From NCBI GenBank assembly GCA_945901795.1, contig CAMDLP010000014.1, positions 1 to 60,745 on the forward strand: a stretch of DNA of 60,745 bases, in the 5' to 3' direction. Each line of letters begins with the position of its first letter. The stretch's first letter is position 1. Source of the stretch: Akkermansia muciniphila. GTDB taxonomy: Bacteria > Verrucomicrobiota > Verrucomicrobiia > Verrucomicrobiales > Akkermansiaceae. Position numbers and translations under genes: made by a program. This document shows positions 19,734 through 60,050 of the stretch, one piece after another. The notes under the pieces are model-generated. The model worked only from the letters and a program-made list of their open reading frames with translations. It searched no databases and was not told the origin of the DNA.

Positions 19734-21220
<1,487 letters not shown>

Positions 21221-21224
<4 letters not shown>

Positions 21225-41762: not shown

Positions 41763-43256
41763 TCACTCGTCCTCGGAACCGCCGAGGGTGACGTTGATGT
41801 TGTATTCGTTCTGCAGGTGGGCGTGGGCTTTGCTTGCTTGGCCTGACTTCGGATAGCGTTTGCAGGTGAGTTGGAAGGTGCGGATGGCATTCTCCTTGTC
41901 CTTGGCTTCTTCGTAGGTGAAACCGATTTGGAGCGATGCCTCAGGTGCGGCGGTATCGACGATCTTGATTTGGTTGTAGAGAACAATCGCTTCTTTTTGT
42001 TCGGCGAGTTTGCGGTGGCAGGCCGCCATTTGGAAGTTGCTGTCGGGGAATCGGTCGATCAGTCGATAGGTGGCGATGGCTTTTCTCCAGTCGGCCATAT
42101 TCTCGTAGCACCCGGCGATGGACCAGAGATAGCCGCCGGCGTGCTCACCGTCGATCTCGATGAGTTTTCGAAACACCGCCATGGCTTCTGCTAGTTTTTT
42201 TTCCTCAAGGAACATGGCTGCGATGTTTTTCAGACCGGTGACGACATCCTTGAATTCGCCGTAGATCCGGCGGGCTTCATCACGCTTTTCGCGTTGTTTA
42301 TACCAAGCCGCCATTTTTCCGAGGAGATCGTCATCGCGGCCGAATCGTTTGCCGATTTCCTCGTAGAGATTCCACGTCTCACTGGGACGTCCGAGGGTGC
42401 CGTTGAGTTCGGCAGCGCGATAGAGCAGTGATTTTTCTAACGCGGGCCTTTCGATCGCTTCGGCTCGTAAGGTGACTAACAGTTGGTCGGCGAGTTTGAG
42501 GGCTGCGGGTTTTGTCGCGGGTTGTTTGAGCAGGTGATCGACGGTTTTTGCGGACATGCTGTAAACGGCATCGAAGAGTTCGGGGCCGGCGTAAGTGGTG
42601 GCGAGTGCCTTTTTCCCCTCATCGAGACGTTGGGCGAAAAAGTGGAGTTCGGCGAGTTCGCGGCAGGCGTCGATGCAGGTGGATTTTGAAGATTCCGTGC
42701 GTTTCACTTTGAAGGTGAGATCATTCAACAGGGCGAGACGTTCGACTTCGTCCTTATGGAGCTTTGCATAGTGGAGCAGATCCACACGGGACCGGAGTGC
42801 GATGTCGTGGTCCGGGTATTCCTTGATAAGGAAGCGGAAGGCGGCTTGGGCTTCCTTAACCTCGCCCATTGTGCGGTAGGCATCGGCAATGCAGTAGGCG
42901 GCCATGGTGGCTTCCTGGGATTCCGGCCAAAAGTCGATGACCGATTGGAAACCCTCGCGCAGGGCGGTCTTGGGTTTCTTGAGATGCATCATCGTGTGGC
43001 TCCACATGAGCTGGGCGTAAGGCGCGCCTGGGCTTTTTTCGTAGATCGTTAGAAATTTTTCGTATTCGCCGAGGGCGGTTTTGAACTCACCATTGGTGTA
43101 GTGCTTTTCGGCAATCTTAATTTGATAGCGCTCGACCTCACGCATTTTTTCGAAGGTGGCGATGGAGATTTGTTCAAGCGTTGAGAGTCCGGCATGCGAT
43201 GCCGGGGCGAGCGCGAGGACAAGGATGCAGATGGTGATGTTGAAGCAGGCTTTCAT
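41763..43256 (-). CDS. Periplasmic TPR protein, last gene of the ExbBD-TPR operon
   Basis: A 497-residue protein with signal peptide MKACFNITICILVLALAPAS (cleavage near SHA-GLS). The remainder is an alpha-solenoid of tetratricopeptide-like repeats, for example AEKHYTNGEFKTALGEYEKF, AYCIADAYRTMGEVKEAQAA, AMFLEEKKLAEAMAVFRKLI, SIAGCYENMADWRKAIATYR and GFTYEEAKDKENAIRTFQLT. No enzyme domain is visible. It is coupled to the DUF4159 gene by a four-base overlap. TPR proteins of this type scaffold envelope complexes. A role with the ExbB/ExbD motor is inferred from the operon only. Confidence 0.85.
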   Translation of the reverse strand: MKACFNITICILVLALAPASHAGLSTLEQISIATFEKMREVERYQIKIAEKHYTNGEFKTALGEYEKFLTIYEKSPGAPYAQLMWSHTMMHLKKPKTALREGFQSVIDFWPESQEATMAAYCIADAYRTMGEVKEAQAAFRFLIKEYPDHDIALRSRVDLLHYAKLHKDEVERLALLNDLTFKVKRTESSKSTCIDACRELAELHFFAQRLDEGKKALATTYAGPELFDAVYSMSAKTVDHLLKQPATKPAALKLADQLLVTLRAEAIERPALEKSLLYRAAELNGTLGRPSETWNLYEEIGKRFGRDDDLLGKMAAWYKQREKRDEARRIYGEFKDVVTGLKNIAAMFLEEKKLAEAMAVFRKLIEIDGEHAGGYLWSIAGCYENMADWRKAIATYRLIDRFPDSNFQMAACHRKLAEQKEAIVLYNQIKIVDTAAPEASLQIGFTYEEAKDKENAIRTFQLTCKRYPKSGQASKAHAHLQNEYNINVTLGGSEDE

Positions 43257-44698
43257 TTGCGGGTGGATTCGAGCCACTTGTTGTATTCGACGTGGGCGTA
43301 GAAAATCACATTCACTCCGAGTTGGTAGCAGGATTCCCAGATTGGCTGGGGGACGCCGGAGTGACCGTCGGACCATGCGTCACCGATGTCGCCGGGATGA
43401 TAATAGACAACGAGGCGGCCGTCCACGACCCAGCCGAGGGCATTGGAACGGCCATGGGGAGCGACGATTGGAAGGCGTGGGAGCGCGTAGGGGATACGGT
43501 GGATCGGGTGGTCGAGATAGACGGAGATCGGCTCAACCTTTGGTAAAACTTTTTGCATCATCGAGATGAACTGGCCTTCCCAGCCCGAGCTGCCGCCATT
43601 GTCGCCGAAGAGCATGCCGTGGTGGTCGAGAAGATAAGTGCGCAGGATTTTGATTTCGCCGTCGCTGACATTGATGTTCTGCTGGCCGGTCATGTAAACC
43701 ATCGGTGGGCTTTTACGGGCTGGAAAACTTTTGAGTCGGCTAATTTCCATCGGTTCGGGCCGGTCGTTGACGGGTTGGCCGAGGCGGACACCATACTCTG
43801 TGAGCAGGTTGAGATCCGAGCCGCGGTCCATGTCCTGAGCCCAGTCTCCGCCGTCATATTTGAGGCGAATGAAGCGGACCTTGCCTTTTGCCGTGCCGGA
43901 AGAGAATCCAGATCCTTCGCCCTCGCCGTTGCCGTTGCCATGTCCGTGGCCTTGGCCGATTTTGTAAAGGTGCTCGGTGACTTCGAGGACTTGGAGTTTT
44001 ACGTCGTCGATGGGCGGGGGATTAAAGAGAATGCTGCTGTAGGGATTGATGACATACTTCTTCTTGATGGACTTCTGAACCCGGACTGTCTGCGTAAGTT
44101 GCTTCTCCTCGCCACCTCCGCCTAACGGGGCTTTATAGATGCTGCATCCTGTGAGTCGCGTAAGGATGAGGAAGACAGCTCCGAACATGCTGGTGTATGT
44201 CAGGATTGTGAAGAGGGACTGGTGGAGTTTTCGATTCCTGCGGCCAAAATACCAAGCAGCCAAGTGACGTGGGTCCCAGATACGGCCGGGTGAGGCAGGT
44301 TTTTCCAAGCGTTTGGTTTGTCGGTCGATCCACCAGACCGCCCACGCGAGTCCGATGAAGAAGGCGCCTAACATGCCGGCGAGGTAGATTGAAGCTGCCA
44401 GGCTGTCATCTCCTCCATGCCCGGTAAAGCGGGTGGCAAGCTGCCATGCGGGGAGGATGCAAGCGGTTAGAACTGCCCGGAAAACAAGCGGCGGACCGTT
44501 TTTCCAACGCCACATCCAATACAGGCAGACCGGGACGGCGGCGAGAAATCCGAGCGTCACCAGCCACGGCGGAAGAAAAAATCCGACCCGGGAATCCAGC
44601 CAGAGCAGGCACCACAACACTGCGAAAATGCCGGTGAGCACGACCGGACGACGACCGTGATGTTGCAGCAGTTTCCTGATCCGGAGCCAATCCATCAC
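43253..44698 (-). CDS. Membrane protein with periplasmic DUF4159 domain
   Basis: A 481-residue protein. Five likely membrane spans lie in the first 190 residues: VVLTGIFAVLWCLLWLD, LVTLGFLAAVPVCLYWMW, FRAVLTACILPAWQL, LAGMLGAFFIGLAWAVWW and LFTILTYTSMFGAVFLILT. A Gly/His-rich linker (GQGHGHGNGNGEGEGSGF) leads into DUF4159 (about 265-478) with VRFIRLKYDGGDWAQDM, LRTYLLDHHGMLFGDNGGSS and NALGWVVDGRLVVYYHPGDI. DUF4159 folds like a glutamine-amidotransferase/ThuA-type domain, but its biochemical role is unknown to me. Overlaps both neighbours by about four bases. Confidence 0.85.
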   Translation of the reverse strand: MMDWLRIRKLLQHHGRRPVVLTGIFAVLWCLLWLDSRVGFFLPPWLVTLGFLAAVPVCLYWMWRWKNGPPLVFRAVLTACILPAWQLATRFTGHGGDDSLAASIYLAGMLGAFFIGLAWAVWWIDRQTKRLEKPASPGRIWDPRHLAAWYFGRRNRKLHQSLFTILTYTSMFGAVFLILTRLTGCSIYKAPLGGGGEEKQLTQTVRVQKSIKKKYVINPYSSILFNPPPIDDVKLQVLEVTEHLYKIGQGHGHGNGNGEGEGSGFSSGTAKGKVRFIRLKYDGGDWAQDMDRGSDLNLLTEYGVRLGQPVNDRPEPMEISRLKSFPARKSPPMVYMTGQQNINVSDGEIKILRTYLLDHHGMLFGDNGGSSGWEGQFISMMQKVLPKVEPISVYLDHPIHRIPYALPRLPIVAPHGRSNALGWVVDGRLVVYYHPGDIGDAWSDGHSGVPQPIWESCYQLGVNVIFYAHVEYNKWLESTRK

Positions 44699-45153
44699 TC
44701 AAGATCCTTAAGGAAGTTGTCGCTCTTACTCTCCAATGGGTTTTTGTTAGGCGGCGCGATCAACTCTTCTCCGACTCCGATGGGGGCGAGCGGATCGGCC
44801 TTTGTCGCGGGTTTCAGATCCAGCTTCGGTGTCTCCGGAACAACGGCTGGAGCTGGAGCTGGAGGTGCCGCCACCTCAGCCGGTGTTTCCGGTGAGCCGA
44901 AAAAATAGGAGATCGCCGTGAACACCAGAATCCCGCCGATGATAATCGTGCTGGAGATGCCAAGCGCACGCACCAGATAGCTGGTCGCAACCACACCGAG
45001 CATGTCGTGGGGGCTCTTGCCTTTGAGTTCGTGTAGAAATACCTGTAATTCCTGCACCGTAGCGTGCGAGTTGCCCGAGAGTTCGCGAAGATCCGCCTTG
45101 GTGCTTGCAAGAGCTCCGCGTCTGGGGGAGGAATCATCGGATTGAATTTTCAT
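44695..45153 (-). CDS. Single-span protein with Pro-rich tail, TonB-like topology
   Basis: A 152-residue protein of unknown family. A cytoplasmic N-terminal part of about 65 residues (ATVQELQVFLHELKGKSPHD, MLGVVATSYLVRALGIS) is followed by a span IIIGGILVFTAISYFFG and a Pro/Ala-rich periplasmic tail (PETPAEVAAPPAPAPAVVPE). It ends in a short acidic end without a TonB C-terminal domain. Position directly after ExbB-ExbD-ExbD and the topology recall TonB or TolA linkers, but no sequence homology is visible. Start and stop codons overlap both neighbours (TAATG upstream). Confidence 0.75.
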   Translation of the reverse strand: MKIQSDDSSPRRGALASTKADLRELSGNSHATVQELQVFLHELKGKSPHDMLGVVATSYLVRALGISSTIIIGGILVFTAISYFFGSPETPAEVAAPPAPAPAVVPETPKLDLKPATKADPLAPIGVGEELIAPPNKNPLESKSDNFLKDLE

Positions 45154-45566
45154 TATTTGTTAGGTATTTGTTCGGGTTCGAGAATGTGCACAAGGTCGCC
45201 TCCTGCATCGCTGATGGCGGCGATGACGGGCTCGAAATGAGTCGCCTTGGCCTCACGGTGGACTTTGAGAAAAACGTATCTTTGGCCGCTTGGCGCGTCT
45301 CCAAGGATCGGCGTGAGTGCATCGGCGAGTTCGTCCGGTGAGATGACTCTGCCGTTGAGATAAGTCTTGAATCCGACGTCGATGGTGACAGTGGCGCGCG
45401 CGGTGCTGACCACTTTCACGTCCTTGGCTCTGGCTGGCTGCCACTGGACATGGCTGTCATCCTCGCCGCGGGCGAGGATGACGAAAAAAATGAGCAGCAG
45501 GAAGGCGATGTCCGCCATCGCGAAGGTTGGAACCGATGCTGATAGTTTTTTGCGTGGGAGTTTCAT
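45153..45566 (-). CDS. ExbD/TolR-family protein (second copy)
   Basis: A 137-residue inner-membrane protein: MKLPRKKLSASVPTFAMADI, with the conserved Asp19 just before the single span AFLLLIFFVILARG, then a periplasmic domain with YLNGRVISPDELADALTPIL and RYVFLKVHREAKATHFEPVI, typical of ExbD. The Asp is the protonatable residue of the proton channel. It overlaps the first ExbD gene by about four bases. Two different ExbD subunits in one operon resemble ExbB-ExbD-ExbD modules in which the subunits form a heteromeric stator. Confidence 0.9.
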   Translation of the reverse strand: MKLPRKKLSASVPTFAMADIAFLLLIFFVILARGEDDSHVQWQPARAKDVKVVSTARATVTIDVGFKTYLNGRVISPDELADALTPILGDAPSGQRYVFLKVHREAKATHFEPVIAAISDAGGDLVHILEPEQIPNK

Positions 45567-45985
45567 TCGACGTTGATGGTGCGCTCGGATTCCAGCTCGA
45601 GAGTGAGGACGCCGCCCGCTTGGGAGATGGCTTGGGAGACGCCGATCCATGTCGGATAGGGAGTCTCCGGGGCGCTCTTGACCACCACGATCCGGTCGGC
45701 CTCGCGGGTTTTCTGTTTGAGGGCCTCGGCGATGCGTTGCGCGAACTCCGGGAGCTGGAGCGGACTGCCGTTGAGCACAATGCCAGTTGGGGTGATCGAA
45801 ACCTCGATGTTCTTGCTTTGCTCACCCTTCTCCGCCTTGGCCTCGGTTTTTGGGAGCAGTTGGGGTATTCCTGTCTCCGTGTGCTCGCCTGCGGAGACGA
45901 GGAAGAAGATAATCAGCGTGAAGGCGATGTCCGAACTGGAACAGTCCGGCGGATCCACCAGCAGCTTGCCGCGTCGCAGTTTCAC
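45563..45985 (-). CDS. ExbD/TolR-family protein (first copy)
   Basis: A 140-residue protein: MKLRRGKLLVDPPDCSSSDI with Asp19 before the span AFTLIIFFLVSAG. The periplasmic part contains SKNIEVSITPTGIVLNGSPL, LPEFAQRIAEALKQ and DRIVVVKSAPETPYPTWIGV. The overall plan equals the second copy, but identity outside the membrane segment is low. It is coupled to the ExbB gene by a stop-start overlap. Predicted to be in a 5:2 or similar stator with ExbB. Confidence 0.9.
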   Translation of the reverse strand: MKLRRGKLLVDPPDCSSSDIAFTLIIFFLVSAGEHTETGIPQLLPKTEAKAEKGEQSKNIEVSITPTGIVLNGSPLQLPEFAQRIAEALKQKTREADRIVVVKSAPETPYPTWIGVSQAISQAGGVLTLELESERTINVE

Positions 45986-46707
45986 GAGTCTTCCTTGTTG
46001 AGGGTCATGCGCAGGGTGATAGTTTCTATCAGCTCTGCGGCGGAGGTCTCGACCTGTAGGACAAATTCATTGATGATGCCGGTGAAATAGTTGAAAGCCA
46101 TATAGGCCGGGATGCCCACGATCAGCCCAAAAGCCGTGGTGAGCAGGGCCACACGGATGCCGGAGGCGGCGGCCAGCACGATGTTTTGACGTCCCAGGCT
46201 TGCCTCGATGTCGCCGAATGACACGATCATTCCCTGCACCGTGCCGAGGAATCCGAGCATCGGCGCGACGGATGCGACGGTGGCGAGGATCGGGAGGTGT
46301 TTTTCGAGTGCGGCGACGATGTGGCCGCCATAGTTTTCCATGCTCTTGAGCACCTGTTGCTCCGTCAGTGCCGGATCGTAGTTGAGACGGCGGAGGACAA
46401 GGTATTTTCGAAGTCCGTTAGATAAAATGGCGGGGACCGGGCCTCGGGTAGCGTCGCAGAGATCCAGTGATTCTTCGATTCGGTCCTCGGATAAGAGTTC
46501 TACGACCTGCTCACGCAAGGTGGAGGAATCGGCTTCTAGCAGTTTCAGACTGCGGTAGCGTTCGATGATGACGGCAAGCGCGAGAATGCCGAGCGCGAGA
46601 ATCGGCCACATGAAGAAGCCGCCATCGATGAGATACTTCATGGCGCCGCTTTGGAAAAATCCGGCGGCGAGGAGGGTGGGTTCTGTGAGGTGGAGGGTCA
46701 TGGTCAT
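45982..46707 (-). CDS. ExbB/TolQ/MotA-family proton channel protein
   Basis: A 241-residue inner-membrane protein. Three spans: about 30-48 (GFFMWPILALGILALAVIIE), 138-163 (LPILATVASVAPMLGFLGTV, the family signature) and 184-207 (RVALLTTAFGLIVGIPAYMA). A long cytoplasmic loop lies between spans 1 and 2 and contains RIEESLDLCDATRGPVPAIL. Conserved small and Thr residues facing the proton path (T143, T156, T191) are present. It follows the 2374-residue gene with a stop-start overlap, so motor and giant periplasmic protein are made from one transcript. Confidence 0.92.
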   Translation of the reverse strand: MTMTLHLTEPTLLAAGFFQSGAMKYLIDGGFFMWPILALGILALAVIIERYRSLKLLEADSSTLREQVVELLSEDRIEESLDLCDATRGPVPAILSNGLRKYLVLRRLNYDPALTEQQVLKSMENYGGHIVAALEKHLPILATVASVAPMLGFLGTVQGMIVSFGDIEASLGRQNIVLAAASGIRVALLTTAFGLIVGIPAYMAFNYFTGIINEFVLQVETSAAELIETITLRMTLNKEDS

Positions 46708-49700
46708 TCGTTCAAGTTGGCTTCTTTATCAAATTGGTTGAGAAGTTCGGGCAGGGCCAGCCGACCGCGCGAGTATTTGGCGGCATCGCTCTCGGGAAAA
46801 TCCCAGCGGCAGCGGTTGTAACGGCGGAAGGCGTTCGGGATGTCCTTGGCCATGCGGTAACTCTCGCCGGCCCAAAACAAGGCTTGGGCGGTGAGTTCCT
46901 GCTCGGGGAATCGTTTCACAAACGCGTCAAAGGAGAGGCCTGCTTTTGCAAATTCCTCGATCTTGTAGTGGCACTGACCGATGCGGAAAGCCATTTTAGG
47001 CGTCCATTCGTGGTCGGGAAAACGTTCGATGAACTTGCTGCCCACGGCGGCGGAGACCGCATAGTCCTCTTTCTGATAGAAGTGTTCATTGATGCGCAGC
47101 ATCACGTTGGCGATGAGCGGACTTTTCGGATAGGTGGCGGCGAGGGTGACATAGGCCTCCAGTGCTTGGGCCAGTTCGCCGGCCTCCTCAAAGCACTGGC
47201 CGAGTTTGTATTGGGCGTCGGGAGCGAGGTTGTGTTCGGGATGGTTGTGGACAATCGAGTTGTAAGCCGCGATGGCTTCATTCCAATCCTGCATTTCCTG
47301 GGCAAACTGACCTAGCAGGTAAGAAATGCGTGGAGCGTATTTGGGGTTGGGATAGTCCTCGTGAAGTTCGCGCAAGACCCGGCGTCCGGCCTGGAGGTCA
47401 GCGGCGGCGTCCTCCTCGTGTTTGACTTTGCGATGGCCCTTGAACAGCTCGAAATAGCTCTCGGCGATATGAAACTGCGTTTGAATGGCGAGATCCTCAT
47501 CTTTGAAAACCTTGCTGAATGCGGCGAGTTCTCCATCGGTTCCGACGGCGACGGGCATTTTGATTTCAATAATGGTTAGGCCATCCGGTGTTTGAGAGAC
47601 ATTGTCGAGGTAGCCTATGGTGATTTCATCGCCGAAAAAGCACTCGATTTCACCGGCAAAGTTGCTAGATGTCGGTTTGGCCGTCGCTTTAAGCGGGAAC
47701 GATCCACTGAAAATACCGCTGTGGGTGAGAGTCTCTTCCAGCTCGACGGTCTCATCCTCACCGGAGGCTGTGACGATGCGGACTAGGGCTTTGTCCCGCT
47801 GATCAGATGCGTCGCGGTCGGGATCATCTAACATAATGAAGAGCTTCTTGCCGACATGGGAAATGGTGGCGTCTTCGAGATACTCCGCGTCGGTGAGTCG
47901 AAGGGCTGCGGCCGAAGTCATGGCGGCCTTCGCTTCGATAGGAGTTTCGGTTTCATCCGGCCGGGAACGGTCATGATAGGTGGCAGTGAAAATGTCGGAG
48001 CCGATGACATTGAGAACATGAAATTCTGCTAGTGCCTTCTTGCCATTATTCTTGGGGCTGTCTTCACCTGTGGCGTTGGATGGAGGTCTTACCTGGCCAA
48101 GCCCGCCCTTGACCGGGGATCCGTCGACGGGAAGCGCAGCGGCGCTGTCGAGCCCACCGAGGCTCAGAGGAATCTGGCCGACGAATCGCCCTTCGAACAG
48201 GGCTGGATTACGCGATTCATCCATGGTTTCGTTAGGGGAAGCGAAGGTACGCGAAAGGACGCATTCGACTTGGATCTTGGTGCCTTGGGTAGTGGCGACT
48301 TCGACGGTAACAGAGCTTCGCGTGTCTTTCGCCTGGTCAGGATCAATCACTTCCACAGTGAGCGGCAGTCGATATTCGACTTTGCTGATGTGATCCGTAG
48401 GACCGACACCCATCACCGGGATCAAGCGCGGTGGGCCGGTCAGCGGTTTTTCACTTTCCAATATCTGGATTAGCGCAGCGGTGGGGTGATTCAGATAGAC
48501 CACTGTTTCGCGGTGAAAGGCATGTCCCGGGAAGGTGTTTTGTTTGTCCTGATAGCGCAGGTAAACCCTGTCGCCTTGTTTCACGACTGTCTTTCCTTTC
48601 GCCGCTTGTGCGGAGGTATCGATCTCGGCTGTGAATACACCGGTCGATGGACCGGTCTCGGTTGCAGTGATCTTGGTGGATGCTTCGGCATTGACCTGCA
48701 GCTCGATCTCTACCGTGTCCCGGTCAAGGCCGGTATCGAGATCCGAATCGGCGACCTCGGCGACGATCCGATCGCCGGGCTCGATGCGCATAAGTTCCTT
48801 ACGGGTTCCCTTGACGGATCCGCCTCCACTGCGGGCGAAGTCATAGCCGATCGGTGTGATGGTGCCATTGTCATAGGTGGCTGTCAGATCCTTGGTCAAT
48901 AGCCGGTTGTGCTGGAGGCCGCCGGCGGTGATCTCGTCGAGATAGGATACTTTCACGCTATCGCCGGGAGCGAGTTCGAGAATTTGATTGCGGGCGAGTT
49001 CGAGCACATCAGATGTTGGAGGGATGTGTTTGGTGCCGCCGCCACTGACTTCGATATTGCTGATAGAAATGGCCTCGCCCCGGTATTCGAGAAACTCGTA
49101 TTCGATGAAGCGAAGTTCACGGACAGGCATGGCGATGGTCCACTGGTTAGAATCATGTTTGATTTCGGTGGGCGGAAGAACACCGATTTTTGGAAGGCCG
49201 GGTGTTGCTGCAAAATCGAAGTCCGCAGGACCGAAGGGGTGCATCGAGATGGTGGATGACTGGCGGTTCTCCCGCGCGCGGAGAGCTTCGACGGGCTTGG
49301 TTCCGGCAGTAGCGATCGAGAGAATCGTCAGTTCATGGAAGCCGCGCTGGGCGTAAATATCGACGGTCCGGGCACCCTCGCCGACTGGCAGCTCAAGCCG
49401 CCCGTCGATCATGATGGCGGTTTTTTTACCTGAAACTCCGAAGCGAATGGCTCCGTCGCGCTCCTGTACCAAGGGGCCGGACCAGACGACGAAGTAGGCG
49501 TCCTCGCTTTTTTCGGGAGGCTGCCACAAGAGTTGATCGACTTTCTGATTTTCGTCGGGTTCCAACTTTTTGATTAGATCTGCGATTTCATCCCAGGTGT
49601 AGGATTCCCGGAGGTTTTTGGCAGGTGTTTTGTAAACACGAACGCGCATTTCCGGATTTGTAAAGGTGATGTGGGCGGGCGGCTTGGCGGTGGGAAAATC

Positions 49701-52700
49701 ACCAATGCCGAACCAAAACCGTCCGTCGTGACTGGCCCGCGCGCGCATGCGAACCGGAGTTTCCTGATCGGCCGCATAAGATGTGAGAGTGATGGATTCC
49801 ACCGGTCGCAATTCCTTCATATCAACCGAGAGCGACTTCGGTGCGGTGCCGTCGGGTTCGCTGCGCCAGAAAGTTTTCGGATCATGGTCGATGGCCATCA
49901 GCGGGCTGTGATCGAGGGCGGAATCCGATGCTTTCGCTCCGGCGGGGAGTTCTCCCGTGCGGACCGTGCCTTGGAAGACTCCACCGTGCTGGCTTTGTTC
50001 CTCGATATTCAGTTGCACCTCGTCGCCGCTTGATGATGTGAGCTTGACGGGCGTTTTGTCGGGGTTGGCCGTGATGTCACGGTCGCCGTCTTTCACTTGG
50101 AGGTAGATAAAATTACCGGGTTTGATCTGGCTTTTCGGGCGTGTTGCGGAGCGTGGTTGCGCGGCCTCGGTGCTGGTGATTTCTTTCTTCAGGTTTTCGG
50201 TGAAGGTCGCCTCGTCCTGGTTGATGATTTCGCTACTGGCGACATCGAGGTGGCCATCAGTAGCAATTTTGAGACGGGTGTTACTGAGGAATTCGAACTG
50301 GAATTGTTTCTTTAAATCCTCCGGGTAATCCACCGTGATGGTATCTCCACCGGTGACCTGGAGGGTGCCGTCATTAGGTTTGGCGACACCGAGAATGGTC
50401 GGCACCTCTGCTAGGAAAATTCCTTTACCCGCACCGCCGCTGGTTAGAAATGCCTGCTCGAGGTCGTTACCGGGATCGGTGCGAACGAGCACTGGGATGC
50501 GTGTGTCGCCGCGGCTGATACCGAGATCGGAGTCCTGCACCACGACTGAGATCGCGGTGCCCGGAGTGTGCCAGAGTTTGGACTCCTGTCCTAGACGACC
50601 GACCGTCCGCAGGGTTTCGAGTTGGGTGAGGAACCGTTGTTCAATTCCGTATACCTCGGCGAGGTTGAACAGGGTTTCGTTTGCGAGATCGGCATCGGGG
50701 GCACTTTCGAGGACGGATAGAAAAATCTTGCGGGCCTGCTCGTTGTTTTCCTGTCGCAGGGAGACGACGCCACGAAGGAAGCTGGCGCGGATCGCTGTCG
50801 CCGGGATCGGGCTTTCGGCAAGGTTCGTGAAAATTTCTTCGGCTTGATCATAGACTTTCTGTGCCATGTAGGTTTCGCCGATACCAAAGCGGGCGTTGAT
50901 CGCTTCGGGTTGGTTTTTGTAAACATTCAGGACGGTGGTGAATTCCGCCCTGGCGATGTCGTATTGACCGGCTCGCTGATAGTTTTTCGCCAGCAGCAAT
51001 TGGACGCGCGCCTTGTCCCGGGTATCGACGTTTTCTGCCGCGCCGAACTTGATCAGCCAAGCGCGCAGGATGTCTTCAGCGCGTTCGTGATCCTTGGGTG
51101 TTGCCTGCGAGATATGGGTTTCTGCGGCAAACAATATCAGTTCAATGGGTAACTCGGCGCGGTGGGCATCGAAAAGTTTTTGGTTTCGCTCATAAGCGAT
51201 TTCTGCGAGGTCGGATTCACCGAGTCTGAGGTGGAGTATGACCTGTAGAAGTGGTGCGATGGGGCTATCGGACGGGATGTCAGCACTCATGCTGCCCATC
51301 TTGGCATAGGCTTTGCGGAGCAGGGTGCGGGCATCGTTCATTTCAGCTTCGCCGACCGAGCGGATCGAGTTGAGCAGGCCGTTGAGAATGGCGACGGCGA
51401 GGGTGTAGTCTTCGCGGGCCAAGGCGGATTGGGCGAAAGGGTAGATGCGTTTCCATGACTCGTAATGGGAATCAGCCATCAGAATCAGGCGTTGGGTCTG
51501 GAGCAAGCGGTCGATGGTGCGGGGTACGTCAACTAACAATTCCATTCCGGCTTCCGCGCTGATGCGGCCAAGGTTCAAGTCACGGACGATTCGGTAAAGT
51601 TGGGCTTTCTTTTCAGCAGGCCAGTCCTTGTTGTTGCGAGTCGCCTCAAGCCATCCGCGGGCCGGCCACTCGCCCATGCCTGACGGGCGGAAAGGTGAAA
51701 GCGCGGATCGTGCGGTGGATTTTGAGAGAACCGATTCCATCGCGGGAAAATCTGCGGTATTGAAGGCGATGCTGGCGATCTCTCCGGCGTAGGAAGCTTG
51801 AAAGTCGGTGTCGGCCTCGAAGCGGGGTTGCAGGAAAGATTTGGCGGCAGCAGGGTCAAGGGTGTGGGCGACACGCAGGGCACAGGAAACGGATTCTTGT
51901 TCGTTAGGTTTCAAATCCATGCGTGATCGCCACCAGGTTGCGGCTTCCGCCTTCATGCCGAGATCATTCATGAAATCGCCGATGCGAGATGAATGGTTGA
52001 GCGGGTAAATGCTTTCCTTGGAAGACGCGGTGATCCACGGCAGTGCTTTGCGGATGATGGCTTCGTCTTTGATTTCGCAAAGGCGTATCCAGGTATCCGG
52101 GGATGTATCGGCAGGGGGGATAGTGAGTAGGTGTTGGGCTGCGGCGAGTTGCATGTTGCGGTCGGCGAAGCTGGCGGATTCTAACCAGCGGGAGGCGGCC
52201 TCGAGATCGAGAGGTGCTTCCTTGCAGAGAGCGGCGTAGTGTTTGGCGGCGACCTCTTTGGACTTCCCGCCGAGATGGTGGCGATAGACATAGGCGAGGC
52301 GGGCGAGTAGCCGCAGGCGATTCTCAGGGGATGGGTTTTTCTGGAGGAGTTCCTGACAGGCTTGGCCGGATTTACCGCCATCCTCGCGGGTTTGTCGCCA
52401 GAGTTTGGCGGATTCATCATTCTGATAAGTCTTCTTGGCTGTCTGCCAATCGCGGTTGTGATTCTTGTCAGAAGGAGAGGAATTCCAGATCCGATCCTGG
52501 AATCCGGCGAGGTAGGGAAATGCTTGGGCACTGGCGATGACGCGTTCCAAATTTTCACGGAAGGCCTCGTCACTGGATGCGGAGTCATAGAGAAACTTGA
52601 TGATTTCCTCGGACCTAGCCTCATTCGCCGGAGATTTTGCGAGGAACTCGCGGGCCATCTCCGTGGCCTTGGCGGCGTCCTTCATGCGGTCGCGATACAC

Positions 52701-53828
52701 ATCGAGTGCCAACACCGCTCGCAAGACAGATGACCCGTTAGAATTCTTGGAAATCACTTTTAAGAGTCCTTGTTCCGCACGGCGCGTATCTTCAGCACAC
52801 CAGGTGACGTAATGTTTAGGAATCTCATGGCTTGTGACATCATAAAGCATGACATCTTCGCTGATGGTTAGTGCCAAAGCGGTGTTTTTAGCCTCAGCTG
52901 CGGCATGGGCGGAGCGGGCAAGTGGTTCGTAACGGTCATCGCGGCGTGGATAGGTGGTGAGGTAACGGCGCGCTTCTGCTTCGATGGATGGAGGAGGTTC
53001 TTTCGCGGAAATCATCGCCGAGATCAGACTTCGATGGATCTCGTCGTTACCGGCGGTGAGTGCCTTGCGGAAGGACTGGACGGCATTTGCGTGTTGTCCG
53101 AGCTGGGATTCAAACTGGCCGGAGCGGAAAGAGAGCTCCCGCTGCCGGGCTTCGCTCATCGGGGCCTTGCGACGGATGAGGGCTTTGGCGATTTGTAGGC
53201 CAGCGGACCATTGTTCGGCGTGCCAGGAGGCTTGCATGCCCTGGAAACCGACATTGGTTAGGATTGCGTTCACGGGAATTTTTTCCACCATCGCAGTAGC
53301 TAGGGTGGTGGCCTGTTTGTATAAAGGTAATGTGTTAGGCACCATCAAGAGTTGGAGCGCGCGTATACCCTGCAAGGCATCGCCGCCATTTAGCCAGATA
53401 TCCCGGCACTGGGTCGCGGCGGAGGGGCTGCGCCCGGTGCGCTCGTAAGCAGTTGCGAGGCGATCCCGCGCGTTGTTGGTGAGTGGGTTGTTAGGAAAGA
53501 GTTCGAGGAACTGGCGACCGGTGGTGATGACGTCCTCATGGCGGGCCGTAGCCGCGTAGCCGTCGATCAATTTGAGCATGATCTCGGCGCGACGTGGATG
53601 AGATGATTGGGAATGTGAGAATTTTCCGGCAGTCCGGATCAATCCGAAGACCTGGCCGTCCTGCCAGTAAAGGTCGATGAGATCGAGCATCAGCTTGGCC
53701 GCAGCCGGCGACGCTTCGGCGGATTCCTTGAGCCGTGCTTCAAGGTCGGCGGCCTTGTCAGCGGCAGCGCCGAAGCAGTGGGCGCCCAGCATCAATAGAA
53801 TGGCGAGTTGTCGGAGAAGTATTTTCAA
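46704..53828 (-). CDS. Giant exported TPR / beta-repeat protein (2374 aa)
   Basis: Signal peptide MKILLRQLAILLMLGAHCFG. Residues about 25-1110 form a long TPR-like solenoid (e.g. LLLAKNYQRAGQYDIARAEF, ARFGIGETYMAQKVYDQAEE). Residues about 1130-2100 are beta-rich, with at least four copies of a pattern like D-x-D-x-D...D-x-V-x-(I/V)-x-(L/V)...E-T...(T/S)-G-(V/I)-F-x-(G/A), e.g. VEIELQVNAEASTKITATET and ETLTHSGIFSGSFPLKA. Inside this lie an F5/8-type-C-like segment (about 1300-1430, LMAIDHDPKTFWRSEPDG) and a PA14-like segment (about 1440-1560). Residues about 2105-2374 are TPRs again (FHIAESYFELFKGHRK, FWAGESYRMAKDIPNAFRRY). Not recognised as a named family. Probably a periplasmic or outer-membrane-associated scaffold. 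Confidence 0.85.
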   Translation of the reverse strand: MKILLRQLAILLMLGAHCFGAAADKAADLEARLKESAEASPAAAKLMLDLIDLYWQDGQVFGLIRTAGKFSHSQSSHPRRAEIMLKLIDGYAATARHEDVITTGRQFLELFPNNPLTNNARDRLATAYERTGRSPSAATQCRDIWLNGGDALQGIRALQLLMVPNTLPLYKQATTLATAMVEKIPVNAILTNVGFQGMQASWHAEQWSAGLQIAKALIRRKAPMSEARQRELSFRSGQFESQLGQHANAVQSFRKALTAGNDEIHRSLISAMISAKEPPPSIEAEARRYLTTYPRRDDRYEPLARSAHAAAEAKNTALALTISEDVMLYDVTSHEIPKHYVTWCAEDTRRAEQGLLKVISKNSNGSSVLRAVLALDVYRDRMKDAAKATEMAREFLAKSPANEARSEEIIKFLYDSASSDEAFRENLERVIASAQAFPYLAGFQDRIWNSSPSDKNHNRDWQTAKKTYQNDESAKLWRQTREDGGKSGQACQELLQKNPSPENRLRLLARLAYVYRHHLGGKSKEVAAKHYAALCKEAPLDLEAASRWLESASFADRNMQLAAAQHLLTIPPADTSPDTWIRLCEIKDEAIIRKALPWITASSKESIYPLNHSSRIGDFMNDLGMKAEAATWWRSRMDLKPNEQESVSCALRVAHTLDPAAAKSFLQPRFEADTDFQASYAGEIASIAFNTADFPAMESVLSKSTARSALSPFRPSGMGEWPARGWLEATRNNKDWPAEKKAQLYRIVRDLNLGRISAEAGMELLVDVPRTIDRLLQTQRLILMADSHYESWKRIYPFAQSALAREDYTLAVAILNGLLNSIRSVGEAEMNDARTLLRKAYAKMGSMSADIPSDSPIAPLLQVILHLRLGESDLAEIAYERNQKLFDAHRAELPIELILFAAETHISQATPKDHERAEDILRAWLIKFGAAENVDTRDKARVQLLLAKNYQRAGQYDIARAEFTTVLNVYKNQPEAINARFGIGETYMAQKVYDQAEEIFTNLAESPIPATAIRASFLRGVVSLRQENNEQARKIFLSVLESAPDADLANETLFNLAEVYGIEQRFLTQLETLRTVGRLGQESKLWHTPGTAISVVVQDSDLGISRGDTRIPVLVRTDPGNDLEQAFLTSGGAGKGIFLAEVPTILGVAKPNDGTLQVTGGDTITVDYPEDLKKQFQFEFLSNTRLKIATDGHLDVASSEIINQDEATFTENLKKEITSTEAAQPRSATRPKSQIKPGNFIYLQVKDGDRDITANPDKTPVKLTSSSGDEVQLNIEEQSQHGGVFQGTVRTGELPAGAKASDSALDHSPLMAIDHDPKTFWRSEPDGTAPKSLSVDMKELRPVESITLTSYAADQETPVRMRARASHDGRFWFGIGDFPTAKPPAHITFTNPEMRVRVYKTPAKNLRESYTWDEIADLIKKLEPDENQKVDQLLWQPPEKSEDAYFVVWSGPLVQERDGAIRFGVSGKKTAIMIDGRLELPVGEGARTVDIYAQRGFHELTILSIATAGTKPVEALRARENRQSSTISMHPFGPADFDFAATPGLPKIGVLPPTEIKHDSNQWTIAMPVRELRFIEYEFLEYRGEAISISNIEVSGGGTKHIPPTSDVLELARNQILELAPGDSVKVSYLDEITAGGLQHNRLLTKDLTATYDNGTITPIGYDFARSGGGSVKGTRKELMRIEPGDRIVAEVADSDLDTGLDRDTVEIELQVNAEASTKITATETGPSTGVFTAEIDTSAQAAKGKTVVKQGDRVYLRYQDKQNTFPGHAFHRETVVYLNHPTAALIQILESEKPLTGPPRLIPVMGVGPTDHISKVEYRLPLTVEVIDPDQAKDTRSSVTVEVATTQGTKIQVECVLSRTFASPNETMDESRNPALFEGRFVGQIPLSLGGLDSAAALPVDGSPVKGGLGQVRPPSNATGEDSPKNNGKKALAEFHVLNVIGSDIFTATYHDRSRPDETETPIEAKAAMTSAAALRLTDAEYLEDATISHVGKKLFIMLDDPDRDASDQRDKALVRIVTASGEDETVELEETLTHSGIFSGSFPLKATAKPTSSNFAGEIECFFGDEITIGYLDNVSQTPDGLTIIEIKMPVAVGTDGELAAFSKVFKDEDLAIQTQFHIAESYFELFKGHRKVKHEEDAAADLQAGRRVLRELHEDYPNPKYAPRISYLLGQFAQEMQDWNEAIAAYNSIVHNHPEHNLAPDAQYKLGQCFEEAGELAQALEAYVTLAATYPKSPLIANVMLRINEHFYQKEDYAVSAAVGSKFIERFPDHEWTPKMAFRIGQCHYKIEEFAKAGLSFDAFVKRFPEQELTAQALFWAGESYRMAKDIPNAFRRYNRCRWDFPESDAAKYSRGRLALPELLNQFDKEANLNE

Positions 53829-56011
53829 AATCCTGCTTTCTTGAGGGCTTCGACGATCTTGTTGGCCTCCAGAGCGATATCGCTTTCCGGGTAATCATCG
53901 ATGAGTTGCTCGAAACGGCGTCGGGCTTCGGGCTTGCGGTCGAGCTTGTAGAGGCAGCGGCCGTAGTTGAAGAGGATGACATCGAGGAAATTGGCGTCGG
54001 GATGGTCTGAAAGGACGTTTTCAAACACATCGACCGCGCGCTTGTAGTCTTCTTTTTGATAGTAAAACGCCGCCATTTTCGCGACCGCATCACCGACGCG
54101 GCCGGAATCGGGAAATTGCTCGTAAACTTTTTGATAAGCCATGAAAGCTTTTTCGTAGAGTTGGCCTGCTTGTTGTGCTGCCGCCTTGAGAGCCATTGCC
54201 TCGTAGCATTCGCCGATAAAGAACTGGCCCTCGCCGCGCAGCTGACTGGCCGGAAGTTTGGTGATGCTGGTGTAGAGGTTGATTGCCTGGGTGTAGTTCT
54301 CGCGTTTGCGTTCGACGTGGGCCTGCTGGAGCATCGCCTCGTCGATGAATGCGCTGGCGGGAAACTCGGCGAGCAGGCGCTTGCTCATTGCGAGCGCGAG
54401 GTCGAGTTTATCCATGGCGAAGTAGATGCGCCAGAGTTGCACATAAGTTTCCTCGAGGAGTTTGCCGCCCACGCCGCGGGCTTTGTCGAGAGTCTCCTCA
54501 CAAACGTCCAGGGCTTCGGTGTATTTCAAGTCGGCTTTGGAGTTTAGCCCGAATTCCTTGTAGTGATTGCCGACTTCGGTGAGAGCTGTTGCGGTGCGGA
54601 CTCGGGTTTTCAGGGCAAGGTCTTCATCGGAAATATCCGTGCGGGTCACCCGGACCTCGCCGAGATTGCCTTCAATGATGCGGGCTTCGGCGGTCCGGAT
54701 GATCGGGCTTGGTCCGAGGTTCCGCTCGTCAAGATAGACCAGGCGTATGGTTTGACCGGGTTCGCCTGTGAGTGTTCCCTCGGCGGTGCCGATTCGGAGT
54801 GGCATTGAGCAACGGAATGTTCCGGCTTGTTCGGTTTCTTTAAGGCTGACAGGAACACTGCGGACCATTATGAGCGGGTCGAGTTGCTGTTTCATGTCCT
54901 TGCCGTCGGCGCCTTCGGTGAGTTCGCCACTGGCCACCTTGCGGGCGAGTTCGTCATCGAGCTCGTCGGGCGTCTTGCGGCGGAAAATCTGTGTTTCAGC
55001 GGCAATTTCGTCAAGACCGGACGTGGTGTCGTGATCGGCATCGGTCACTTGCAAGTGGAGAGGTTTGCCAATCACCGCAGCCTGGATTTCACGTTGATAG
55101 GATCCGTCAGTGATGCTGGCCAGTCCGATGCCGACGACGACGACTTTCTTTAGGCGCTTCTCGTCAAATGATTTGCTGGCAGTGTGGGTATCGATGTAGG
55201 TCACGCTAATCGAGTCGCCGCCGCGGACATCGAGGACGAAATCGTTAGATTTCTGTCGGCCGAGTTTGGTGAGAATTCCGCCGAGGGCTATTCGGGCATT
55301 GCGACCCACCAGATTGCAGAGCACGGTTTCCTCGTCACCGCTTTGGGTCGTGCAGCGGATTTTCACTTGTTCTCCGACCGGGAGGATGGCGAAATCCGGA
55401 TCGTCGATTTTGATAAAGAGGCGTTTACCTGCCTCGACCTTGTCGATCTTCGAGTCTTCACTGGAGAGGGCGGTGCCGACATTTTCGAGGGCTTCGATCG
55501 CACGGCTGTAGTGGCCGAGTTTGAAATGGCCGAGGCCGATGTAGTAATACGCCTCGTTGACTTGGGTGGATGCGGGGAAGCGCTCGATCACGTCGCGCAT
55601 GATCGAGAAGCACTTGCCATAGTTCGCGGCCTCGTAAAAGCAGGTGCCCGTCTGAAGATAGGCATAGGCGCGGCATTCGTCGTTCTCGTTAGTTTCTATC
55701 GCCGCGGCTTCATAGTGGAGGCGTGCTTTGTCAAAGTCGCGGGTTTCCTTGAGCAGGTGGTCGGCTAGGCGCAGATGCGCGTCGAAGCGGACCTGGCTGC
55801 GCGGGTAGCGTTCGACGACGGATTCCCAGATTTCCAGCGCCTTCTCGTTTTCTCCGACCTCGTGGCGGGCGTTACCGGCTTGAAGGAGTTTGCGTGCTGC
55901 CCGGTCCTCGATGATCGAACCGCGTTCGGCGGCTGGTGGGGCTTGTTCGTCCGCGAGCAAAGGAAGTGCTAAGAGAAGGCAAAGAAGAGTGTAGGGTAAT
56001 GGATTTGTCAT
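53825..56011 (-). CDS. Exported TPR / beta-repeat protein (728 aa)
   Basis: Signal peptide MTNPLPYTLLCLLLALPLLA. TPRs at about 30-190 (AGNARHEVGENEKALEIWES, YYIGLGHFKLGHYSRAIEAL). A beta-rich centre at about 195-480 contains IKIDDPDFAILPVGEQVKIR, HLQVTDADHDTTSGLDEIAA and ETEQAGTFRCSMPLRIG, the same D-x-D / E-T-x-x-x-G-x-F pattern as in the 2374-residue protein. TPRs at about 490-728 include YEKAFMAYQKVYEQFPDSGR and FNYGRCLYKLDRKPEARRRF. So it is a smaller version of the TPR-beta-TPR plan. Its stop overlaps the start of the giant gene. First gene of the coupled eight-gene operon. Confidence 0.85.
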   Translation of the reverse strand: MTNPLPYTLLCLLLALPLLADEQAPPAAERGSIIEDRAARKLLQAGNARHEVGENEKALEIWESVVERYPRSQVRFDAHLRLADHLLKETRDFDKARLHYEAAAIETNENDECRAYAYLQTGTCFYEAANYGKCFSIMRDVIERFPASTQVNEAYYYIGLGHFKLGHYSRAIEALENVGTALSSEDSKIDKVEAGKRLFIKIDDPDFAILPVGEQVKIRCTTQSGDEETVLCNLVGRNARIALGGILTKLGRQKSNDFVLDVRGGDSISVTYIDTHTASKSFDEKRLKKVVVVGIGLASITDGSYQREIQAAVIGKPLHLQVTDADHDTTSGLDEIAAETQIFRRKTPDELDDELARKVASGELTEGADGKDMKQQLDPLIMVRSVPVSLKETEQAGTFRCSMPLRIGTAEGTLTGEPGQTIRLVYLDERNLGPSPIIRTAEARIIEGNLGEVRVTRTDISDEDLALKTRVRTATALTEVGNHYKEFGLNSKADLKYTEALDVCEETLDKARGVGGKLLEETYVQLWRIYFAMDKLDLALAMSKRLLAEFPASAFIDEAMLQQAHVERKRENYTQAINLYTSITKLPASQLRGEGQFFIGECYEAMALKAAAQQAGQLYEKAFMAYQKVYEQFPDSGRVGDAVAKMAAFYYQKEDYKRAVDVFENVLSDHPDANFLDVILFNYGRCLYKLDRKPEARRRFEQLIDDYPESDIALEANKIVEALKKAGF

Positions 56012-56114: not shown

Positions 56115-57371
56115 TCAAACAAAAAGTTCGTGGATCGGATTGGCTTCCTTGCGGACGAGGCGCATCGGGCGGCCTTGGGGAGTGATAATTTCCTTGTCGA
56201 GTTGGATTCCAAGGGCGAGGCAGATCGAGGCATGGAGGTCGGGGACGCTGACCGGTCGCTCGGCAGGTTCCATGCCATCCTCGTCTGAGGAGCCGATGAT
56301 GGTGCCTCCCTTGATGCCGCCGCCTGCCATCATGCAGCTGAAGCAGCGGGCCCAGTGATCGCGTCCCGCGCCGTCGTTGATGCGCGGGGTGCGCCCGAAC
56401 TCGCTGAGAACGACCACGAGCGTTTTGGATAACAATCCGTTAGCCTTGAGATCGGAGAGTAGAGAGGCGATACCGGGGTCCATTGCCGCGCCGTGGGCCC
56501 GCATGGCTTGGAAAATATTGCCATGATTGTCGAAGCCGCCGCGGTTGACCTGGACGAAGCGCACGCCTTTTTCGACGAGGCGCCGGGCGAGCAATGCGCC
56601 GCGACCGAACTCGGTGTTGCCGTAACGTTCGATCGTTTGAGGTGATTCCTCGTCGAGTTCGAAGGCTTTGAGGGCGGGGCTTTCCATGAGGGCGACGGCA
56701 TCCTTGATGGCGATTTCGGTGGCCTTCATTTCGCTCGAACCGATGTTGCCGGAGGCGCGGGCGTTCATACGTTCGAGAATTTGCAAACGCTGCATGCCGC
56801 GGGCGTGGCTGATGCCTTCGGGAAATGCGAGGTAGGGATCTTTTTCGCCTGGGCGACCCACAAAATAGGCCTCACATTGTTGGCCGAGGTATCCGGCGCG
56901 CGATGCTTGACCGCTGATGCTAACAAATGCGGGAAGGTCGCCGAGTGGCTCGCGCTCATGGACGATGATGGATCCGAGCCCGGGGTGAAGGATGTTAGGC
57001 GATTGGCTGAAGCCGGTCTGGAGCTCATATTGTGCCCGGCCGTGGTCACCATTGGTACCGGCGATCGACCGGATCAACGCGGCATGGTGCATCTGCTTGG
57101 CGAGTTGGGGGAAAATCTCCGAGATCTCCATGCCGCTGACCGAGGTCTTGATTGGCGCGAACTCGCCTTGGACCTTGCGCCCGGGCTTGGGATCCCAGGT
57201 ATCGAGGTGACTCATGCCGCCGCTGTTCCAGAACAGGATCACGTGTTCGGCGTTAGCTTTCCCTGGGACTGCACGCGCTAACAATTGGCTGATGGGCATG
57301 CCTAACATTGTAGCGCCGAATGTTTTCAACATTCGGCGGCGGGTGATCTGGTAGTCGGTGCAAGCGTTCAT
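56115..57371 (-). CDS. DUF1501 protein with Tat-like leader (second pair)
   Basis: A 418-residue protein opening with a twin-arginine type leader, ITRRRMLKTFGATMLGMPIS. Family segments are HVILFWNSGGMSHLDTWDPK, AALIRSIAGTNGDHGRAQYE, VRFVQVNRGGFDNHGNIFQA, LVVVLSEFGRTPRINDGAGR and CFSCMMAGGGIKGGTIIGSS. It is shorter than the DUF1501 at 19734-21224 and belongs to the compact variant. Starts eight bases after the PSD1 gene and ends 103 bases before the TPR operon. Whether it is co-transcribed with the TPR/ExbBD genes cannot be decided from sequence, but no terminator is visible in the gap. Confidence 0.88.
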   Translation of the reverse strand: MNACTDYQITRRRMLKTFGATMLGMPISQLLARAVPGKANAEHVILFWNSGGMSHLDTWDPKPGRKVQGEFAPIKTSVSGMEISEIFPQLAKQMHHAALIRSIAGTNGDHGRAQYELQTGFSQSPNILHPGLGSIIVHEREPLGDLPAFVSISGQASRAGYLGQQCEAYFVGRPGEKDPYLAFPEGISHARGMQRLQILERMNARASGNIGSSEMKATEIAIKDAVALMESPALKAFELDEESPQTIERYGNTEFGRGALLARRLVEKGVRFVQVNRGGFDNHGNIFQAMRAHGAAMDPGIASLLSDLKANGLLSKTLVVVLSEFGRTPRINDGAGRDHWARCFSCMMAGGGIKGGTIIGSSDEDGMEPAERPVSVPDLHASICLALGIQLDKEIITPQGRPMRLVRKEANPIHELFV

Positions 57372-59823: not shown

Positions 59824-60014
59824 GGTGGCGGTGGTGAAGAGTGCTGGTAAATTCGGACGGCCCGGATACCTCGCGGCAAGGCGGAGCCTTTCAAACTTTG
59901 GCACCGGACGCCCGGCGCGAAAGAGGATTTCTGGCCGTTCCACCGCTCCGGTCAATCGATGGTGTTGCGGTTTTACAGCCAATAATATAAAGTGACAGAT
60001 AAATAATAAGGCTC

Positions 60015-60050
60015 CCATAAAAAAGCCGCCCGGATTGCTCCCGGCGGCCA
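60015..60050 (-). terminator. Intrinsic terminator of the barrel gene
   Basis: GGCCGCCGGG pairs with CCGGGCGGC around AGCAAT on the minus strand (60030s-60048), followed by TTTTTTATGGG. It lies 27 bases past the stop at 60077 and separates this gene from the PSD1 operon. Confidence 0.88.

Follow-up and report, generated by a model that had tools for sequence, protein, structure and literature searches.

What does an ExbB/ExbD-type stator drive when its operon contains no TonB, TolA or receptor gene? The question is raised by a stretch of 60,745 nucleotides from Akkermansia muciniphila (GenBank assembly GCA_945901795.1, contig CAMDLP010000014.1), referred to here as the window, which is one of the 120 contigs (C14) that make up a genome of 3.28 Mb. 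The initial annotation placed in it eight coupled minus-strand genes for proteins with tetratricopeptide repeats (TPRs), an ExbB, two ExbDs, a TonB-like linker and a DUF4159 protein, and proposed a dedicated system. All eight open reading frames (ORFs) are present at the positions claimed, the seven overlapping junctions read TTGA, ATGA, GTGA, ATGA, TAATG, GTGA and ATGA, and the TPR, ExbB, two ExbD and DUF4159 assignments are all matched by Pfam. The proposal of a dedicated system also holds, as the linked gene order is conserved beyond this strain and the ExbB belongs to a clade of its own. The operon very probably encodes an ExbB/ExbD-type machine with its own partners.

The stator was assessed by family, pore residues and phylogeny. 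The MotA_ExbB match (P0003) and both ExbD matches (P0004 and P0005) exceed the Pfam cut-offs. Both pore threonines of ExbB are kept in 62/62 aligned rows, and the transmembrane (TM) aspartate is kept in 66/66 rows of the first ExbD and 66/67 rows of the second; because these residues are retained, the stator is taken to be a working one. In a 48-row tree with long branches and a weak, unsure deep order, the ExbBs of the operon's kind (type A) form one clade (support 100/99), which adjoins the ExbBs of a paralogous system (type B; 87/74). Family, pore residues and clade together show that ExbB and two different ExbDs form a stator. The tree took 28 of 66 rows labelled A, including that of the window. 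One row so labelled (L122 at 17405) comes from a stray ExbB that is not part of the operon, and group A therefore needs two changes in the tree. Planctomycetota and Verrucomicrobiota separate roughly inside the clade, which suggests an old system with later losses more than one that spread recently. The initial annotation had asked whether the ExbB might fall within ordinary TonB or Tol clades; it lies apart from both the TonB-linked ExbB of the same genome and E. coli TolQ/ExbB. The TonB-linked ExbB groups with the E. coli rows (95/90, on long branches). It is encoded on contig C11 together with an ExbD-like protein (by eye) and a TonB_C match (4.1e-22). The statement that TonB and its receptors are missing thus stands for the operon and fails for the genome, where eight TonB-receptor plug matches were also found. 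A defence system (Zorya and others) was rejected, as none of the seven operon proteins other than the giant described below was matched by PADLOC at 0.001.

The spread of the operon was followed with a four-row DUF4159 alignment. It matched 174 relatives among named genomes, and the 80 best loci were retained. Those closest to the window belong to Akkermansiaceae and other Verrucomicrobiales, and 26/80 loci bear planctomycete titles (manual count; titles of metagenome-assembled genomes may err). Five core genes (ExbB, both ExbDs, linker and DUF4159) occur together in 61/80 loci, and their order is identical in all 61, from two phyla. The order is thus not unique to this strain, a doubt raised by the initial annotation, and since it recurs across two phyla it is more than chance. 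Of these 61 loci, 52 have the giant as immediate upstream neighbour of the core and 50 have TPR537 as the immediate downstream one; several of the missing neighbours are due to contig ends. A TPR728 homologue is found ahead of the giant in 20/80 loci reaching that far. Among the other 19 loci, 16 have less than 3 kb upstream of DUF4159, and three (L092, L112 and L114) have 10 kb and lack genes. Six loci without an adjacent giant were checked (these three, L082, L091 and L108), and five of the six genomes hold a high-scoring giant elsewhere, which for L108 is on the same contig at a distance of about 16 kb. L092, from Rubritalea profundi SAORIC-165, is a type A remnant with a stop inside DUF4159 and neither ExbB nor giant alongside; this genome has giants only of type B score and a type B copy elsewhere.

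In wider samples, DUF4159 relatives were found in 35/387 genomes from the phylum at 1e-20 (24 above 150 bits, manual count) and in 16/294 Planctomycetota genomes at 1e-40, a sample centred on and including a Rubripirellula. Three of the latter reach the type A score, two of them already among the named-genome relatives. The gene block is common to many mostly water-dwelling Verrucomicrobiota and Planctomycetota. In the genus, DUF4159 of either type occurs in 16/61 genomes and the giant in 15/61, all within the same 16; the exception, G533, is 72% complete. The two genes are therefore concordant in 60/61 genomes (Fisher 2e-13, uncorrected for kinship). For type A alone, both are present in 10 genomes, only DUF4159 in G533 and G545, and only the giant in G498 (p 8e-9, likewise uncorrected). 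Types were split by score, G547 was called A manually from two pieces at contig ends, and the weaker third match in G507 was not counted. In the complete genome G494 the unit is split into two halves about 417 kb apart. TPR728 and the giant occupy 0.845-0.854 Mb, and the genes from ExbB to TPR537 occupy 1.271-1.276 Mb. These genes are free of internal stops, the single stop in the TPR537 match falling ahead of the coupled start. The coupled junctions, the identical core order, the concordance of giant and DUF4159 and the retention of both halves in G494 argue that the genes act as one unit.

The paralogous type B system is present in the same genome on contig C32 (L039, L176). It comprises a giant and a giant-like ORF, a 122-residue gene product, ExbB, two ExbDs, a linker with a TM histidine and DUF4159, together with a 388-residue membrane protein and a 1317-residue DUF6288/HEAT protein. 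In the genus, types A and B of DUF4159, each found in 12 genomes, occur together in 8/61 (p 6e-5).

The linker, which has no Pfam match, was found in 73/80 loci (phmmer). It had been called TonB-like, and a single TM helix with a proline/alanine-rich tail agrees with that description, whereas the TonB C-terminal domain and the TM histidine are missing. The histidine is absent from the TM window in 72/73 type A linkers and also from the linker of the window (by eye), and present in both type B linkers inspected (by eye). Just ahead of the TM helix, 71/73 linkers carry the motif [KR]xPx[ED][MVL][LMIV]G, seen in the window as KSPHDMLG at residues 46-53 before a helix at about 63-85. This juxtamembrane motif is new. 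The tail after the helix spans 41-99 residues (median 77) and ends in a conserved peptide. Its consensus, with LGxGExK, NPLD and DDLLxxLE (by eye), extends from Akkermansiaceae to Rhodopirellula and Phycisphaeraceae, and NP[LFMYI] occurs within the last 30 residues in 68/73 linkers from Verrucomicrobiota to Planctomycetota. Seven linkers picked for length were scanned for an N-terminal GYF_2 domain, and six of them carry it. A separate locus in the same genome (L154:7867-9402, contig C44) encodes a protein of 512 residues flanked by two ExbB-like genes. Its N-terminal TM helix contains histidine (by eye), and its C-terminal domain resembles squalene-hopene cyclase (1.8e-9); it is possibly a force transducer with an unusual head.

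The TPR partners of the stator are predicted to be exported and the DUF4159 protein to reside in the membrane. TPRs were matched in P0001, P0002 and P0008 (TPR728, the giant and TPR537), and all three have N-terminal signal-like stretches (by eye). The longest ORFs of the second ExbD and of TPR537 begin at 45650 and 43376, ahead of their coupled starts.

The DUF4159 protein (P0007) was modelled with 35 rows (mean predicted local distance difference test score, pLDDT, 83.1) as five long membrane helices followed by a soluble domain, which resembles 4i66 from Haliangium (Foldseek 2.4e-8; VIA-align Z 24.2, root-mean-square deviation (rmsd) 1.7 over 186 residues) and has amidotransferase domains as its next matches. 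Loops 0, 2 and 4 are basic, which would place the soluble domain in the periplasm. Directly after the fifth helix, Gly-Cys is present in 35/35 rows; the four letters there fit a loose lipobox, [LIV][STAG][GA]C, in 23/35 (manual tally), and the site could serve internal lipidation or cleavage. An enzymatic role was considered and rejected, since the strand end reads GDNGGS (by eye) at the place of the cysteine in class I amidotransferases. The modelled domain is probably non-catalytic.

The giant runs from a TPR arm through beta domains to a CBM32-like domain that is interrupted by a PA14-like insertion, and on through further beta domains to a second TPR arm. Its middle (1035 residues) was modelled with 33 rows (mean pLDDT 81.4). 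The CBM32-like domain superposes on 5xnr (VIA-align Z 11.9, rmsd 2.7, 117 residues) and the PA14-like insertion on 6m8m (Z 12.1, rmsd 3.2, 142 residues). Sequence models agree weakly with these folds: for the CBM32-like domain, Pfam F5_F8_type_C reaches 1.5e-5, below its cut-off, and the profile match to 2kd7 is 0.0013. PA14 lectins bear a DD motif, which is missing from the insertion in the alignment (every second row inspected); a proven PA14 lectin was therefore rejected. By Foldseek, the middle of the giant is closest to Nitrosopumilus S-layer chains (1.1e-19), followed by alpha-2-macroglobulin and complement chains; with VIA-align, the S-layer chain 8c8k gives Z 15.1 and rmsd 8.1 over 225 residues. 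The Kustd1514 family model also matches a stretch of the giant (8.6e-14), at 49.9 bits far below its cut-off of 1400.

The unit probably begins upstream of the start given in the initial annotation, with a PSCyt1/DUF1549/DUF1553 gene (PSD1) and a DUF1501 gene. DUF1501 is a family of the sulfatase superfamily. In the window, both genes lie on the same strand as TPR728, and the gap between DUF1501 and TPR728 is 103 bases. The 80 loci stop short of the region upstream of TPR728, and ten upstream stretches were fetched separately from other genomes. TPR728 is present in seven. DUF1501 directly precedes it at 78-88% identity in six of the ten (6/7 with TPR728), and PSD1 precedes both at 50-64% identity in five. 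Both genes stand ahead of TPR728 in G427, with DUF1501 at 79%; L193 has TPR728 without DUF1501 directly upstream. L185, L187 and L194 lack TPR728 in their stretches, and in G512 and G549 (L185, L187) the DNA out to about 10 kb from the start of the giant contains none. Neither gene was found upstream of the type B loci L043 and L166. In G494, DUF1501 has moved together with TPR728 and the giant. Among the first five ORFs downstream of the operon, PSD1 occurs in 13/54 and DUF1501 in 8/54 loci; this rarity first led us to regard both as non-partners, a view overturned by the upstream stretches. Elsewhere in the window are a second pair of DUF1501 and PSCyt1/DUF1549/DUF1553 genes (19734-24034) and a short cytochrome P450-like gene (37859-38998; 6.7e-13) adjoining an alcohol dehydrogenase and an esterase.

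Table 1 Features of the stator operon and its upstream genes in the window.
Feature	Coordinates	Strand	Remarks
PSCyt1/DUF1549/DUF1553 (PSD1) protein	57379..60018	-	probable first gene of unit in the window's family
DUF1501 protein	56115..57371	-	probable second gene of unit in the window's family
TPR protein TPR728, 728 residues	53825..56011	-	exported (signal-like stretch, by eye); central S-layer-like stretch (by eye)
Giant, 2374 residues	46704..53828	-	exported (by eye); overlaps TPR728 gene by TTGA
Split CBM32 / F5-8 type C-like domain of giant, residues about 1296-1599	49032..49943	-	VIA-align
PA14-like insertion in CBM32-like domain, residues about 1390-1543	49200..49661	-	VIA-align
S-layer-like stretch of giant, residues 1944-2080	47589..47999	-	NF052345 (Kustd1514 family model)
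ExbB/TolQ-like stator protein, 241 residues	45982..46707	-	MotA_ExbB 8.4e-26; own clade
First ExbD/TolR-like protein, 140 residues	45563..45985	-	ExbD 4.7e-12
Second ExbD/TolR-like protein	45153..45566	-	ExbD 2.6e-11; coupled start 45566
Linker, 152 residues	44695..45153	-	cytoplasmic part, KSPHDMLG, one TM helix, proline/alanine-rich tail
Conserved C-terminal peptide of linker, residues 125-152, IGVGEE...NPLESKSDNFLKDLE	44698..44781	-	
DUF4159 membrane protein, 481 residues	43253..44698	-	DUF4159 4.2e-29; five TM helices, Gly-Cys, soluble domain
DUF4159 soluble domain, residues 273-470	43289..43882	-	class I glutamine amidotransferase-like fold, predicted periplasmic
TPR protein TPR537	41763..43256	-	exported; coupled start 43256

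From these parts we infer coupling by the linker, a driven giant and a glycan load. The TM helix and the KSPxEMLG-type motif of the linker would dock on the stator, and the conserved peptide at the end of its tail may bind a periplasmic TPR protein, so that the linker could relay movement of the stator to the giant and its TPR companions. The DUF4159 protein would be a second membrane part that keeps its amidotransferase-like domain on the periplasmic side, in contact with this assembly. The giant would do the work of the machine, and its load would most likely be a large glycan that it binds, or moves across the periplasm or inside it. The glycan link is drawn from the CBM32- and PA14-like folds, the DUF1501 gene ahead of the unit and an excess of sulfatase candidates in carriers. 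Sulfatase candidates number 14.4 per Mb in the 16 carriers of the genus versus 6.3 in the 45 non-carriers (p 4e-5), and response-regulator candidates go in the opposite direction, with 5.0 versus 8.2 per Mb (p 2e-4); both are first-look figures, and all such lifestyle comparisons are uncorrected for kinship. The carrier profile fits a polysaccharide-degrading life without proving a role for the operon. The whole chain, from the stator by way of the linker tail to the periplasmic TPR proteins and the giant, with glycan handling as its outcome, is put forward tentatively, at slightly less than even confidence.

Several observations weigh against this glycan-handling chain. The likeness of the giant to S-layer proteins exists only at the domain level (TM-score 0.16 to 8c8m); together with the alpha-2-macroglobulin and complement matches, this low score indicates that what is shared is beta domains. 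Sugar binding goes only as deep as the fold, given the missing DD motif and the CBM32-like match below the Pfam cut-off. The sulfatase excess is a first look without kinship correction. TonB receptors are present in genomes of the genus, and carriers have slightly more receptor plugs (1.7 versus 1.1 per Mb, p 0.02) and smaller genomes (3.19 versus 3.9 Mb, p 0.01). The operon contains no outer-membrane channel, and its downstream neighbours differ among loci. Moreover, polysaccharide uptake in Bacteroidetes and alginate uptake in a Verrucomicrobiota isolate are both credited in print to TonB-dependent transport (PMC5520146, PMC13274419).

The mucin utilization locus MUL1 of Akkermansia also belongs to Akkermansiaceae and also serves glycan uptake. 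A locus in the Akkermansiaceae genome G100 (L161:823-8118), which may be MUL1, contains ExbB-like and ExbD-like genes (by eye) with genes for a 1101-residue TPR protein and a 347-residue protein; a giant and DUF4159 of the operon's kind were not found in this genome. MUL1 is described as resembling Sus, with synteny absent from aquatic relatives, in the portion of PMC13174399 seen, and the portions seen of PMC12418764 and PMC11790493 give no gene list for it.

The initial annotation recognised no described system of this composition, a statement that needs a qualifier. The nearest published system found is a TPR-TolQ-TolR-TolR-vWA set of the Planctomycetota-Verrucomicrobiota-Chlamydiota (PVC) superphylum. 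As described in the section on this set in PMC12204202, it comprises genes for a TPR protein, a single TolQ-like protein, two TolR-like proteins that differ from each other and a TM-tethered protein with a disordered linker, and its function is unknown. The operon shares this plan, with the same superphylum and the same order of TPR, TolQ, TolR and TolR. The PVC transducer has an SHLS/His TM helix and a vWA domain, whereas the operon linker lacks the histidine in nearly all cases, its short tail carries no domain, and neither the linker nor the DUF4159 protein has a vWA match (Pfam at 0.1). The giant and DUF4159 take part in the operon, and that section makes no mention of a giant, CBM32/PA14 or DUF4159. 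With the terms used, DUF4159 was not found in print in the open-licence literature, either alone or with ExbD.

Among other readings, a Tol-Pal-like role in envelope maintenance, anchoring or remodelling an S-layer or expanded outer envelope, is unlikely but survives best. The operon shares with TonB-ExbB-ExbD and Tol-Pal the stator families, the pore threonines and the TM aspartate, and the closest solved relatives of its ExbB by sequence are TolQ (6.2e-16). The S-layer-like domains of the giant fit this reading as well. They recall the S-layer proteins Kustd1514 of Kuenenia and that of Nitrosopumilus, although the giant scores far below the NCBIfam cut-off for Kustd1514, and we know of no TPR arms or stator in those systems. 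However, the operon lacks a TonB/TolA C-terminal domain, a receptor, TolB and Pal (no Pal or TolB among ten proteins scanned with Pfam), and its ExbB stands in another clade. In addition, a housekeeping role would be more evenly distributed than a system that is found in about a quarter of the genus genomes, reaches few Planctomycetota and is broken in Rubritalea profundi.

Somewhat less likely still is a machine for gliding or surface motion like Agl-Glt of Myxococcus, in which ExbB and two ExbDs would drive the TPR scaffolds and the giant. The GYF_2 domain of some linkers, which occurs also on GltJ, agrees with this reading. The lectin-like module of the giant is left unexplained by it. The parts are alike in kind, as Agl-Glt combines AglR with AglQ and AglS, TPR proteins and the 4132-residue TPR protein GltI (PMC3169522, seen in part); the likeness lies in the parts list, and the taxa differ. 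In the same source, a survey of 1180 proteomes from about 2011, close Agl-Glt cores belong to delta- and gammaproteobacteria, one betaproteobacterium and Fibrobacter, and the words planctomycet- and verrucomicrob- are absent from the main text.

A stator-gated sensor is improbable: the DUF4159 domain would bind a ligand and the TPR giant would report load or glycan to the cell, with no transport. The missing cysteine (by eye) points to a binding rather than a catalytic domain, and the GYF_2 domain carried by some linkers would lie on the cytoplasmic side, yet the proteins scanned with Pfam include no regulator. An ordinary TonB or Tol energiser with its transducer and receptor elsewhere, for which the TonB_C and plug matches of the genome provide candidates, is very improbable, because the TonB_C gene has its own adjoining ExbB-like gene that joins the E. 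coli rows and the operon ExbB, in its separate clade, stays with the linker and DUF4159.

Extending the glycan-handling chain, the operon may represent a separate, ancient class of proton-driven machine, in which the tail peptide, in place of a folded transducer like TonB, engages the TPR arms and the stator hauls the lectin-like periplasmic giant together with long polysaccharides, a 'glycan winch'. This extension is speculative and rather unlikely. If true, it could be the missing engine of selfish polysaccharide uptake in Planctomycetota and Verrucomicrobiota. A short tail peptide acting on TPRs would add a type of transducer to those of ExbB/ExbD motors, and the conservation in both phyla of a proton-driven unit with a giant lectin-like part opens the question to deletion tests.

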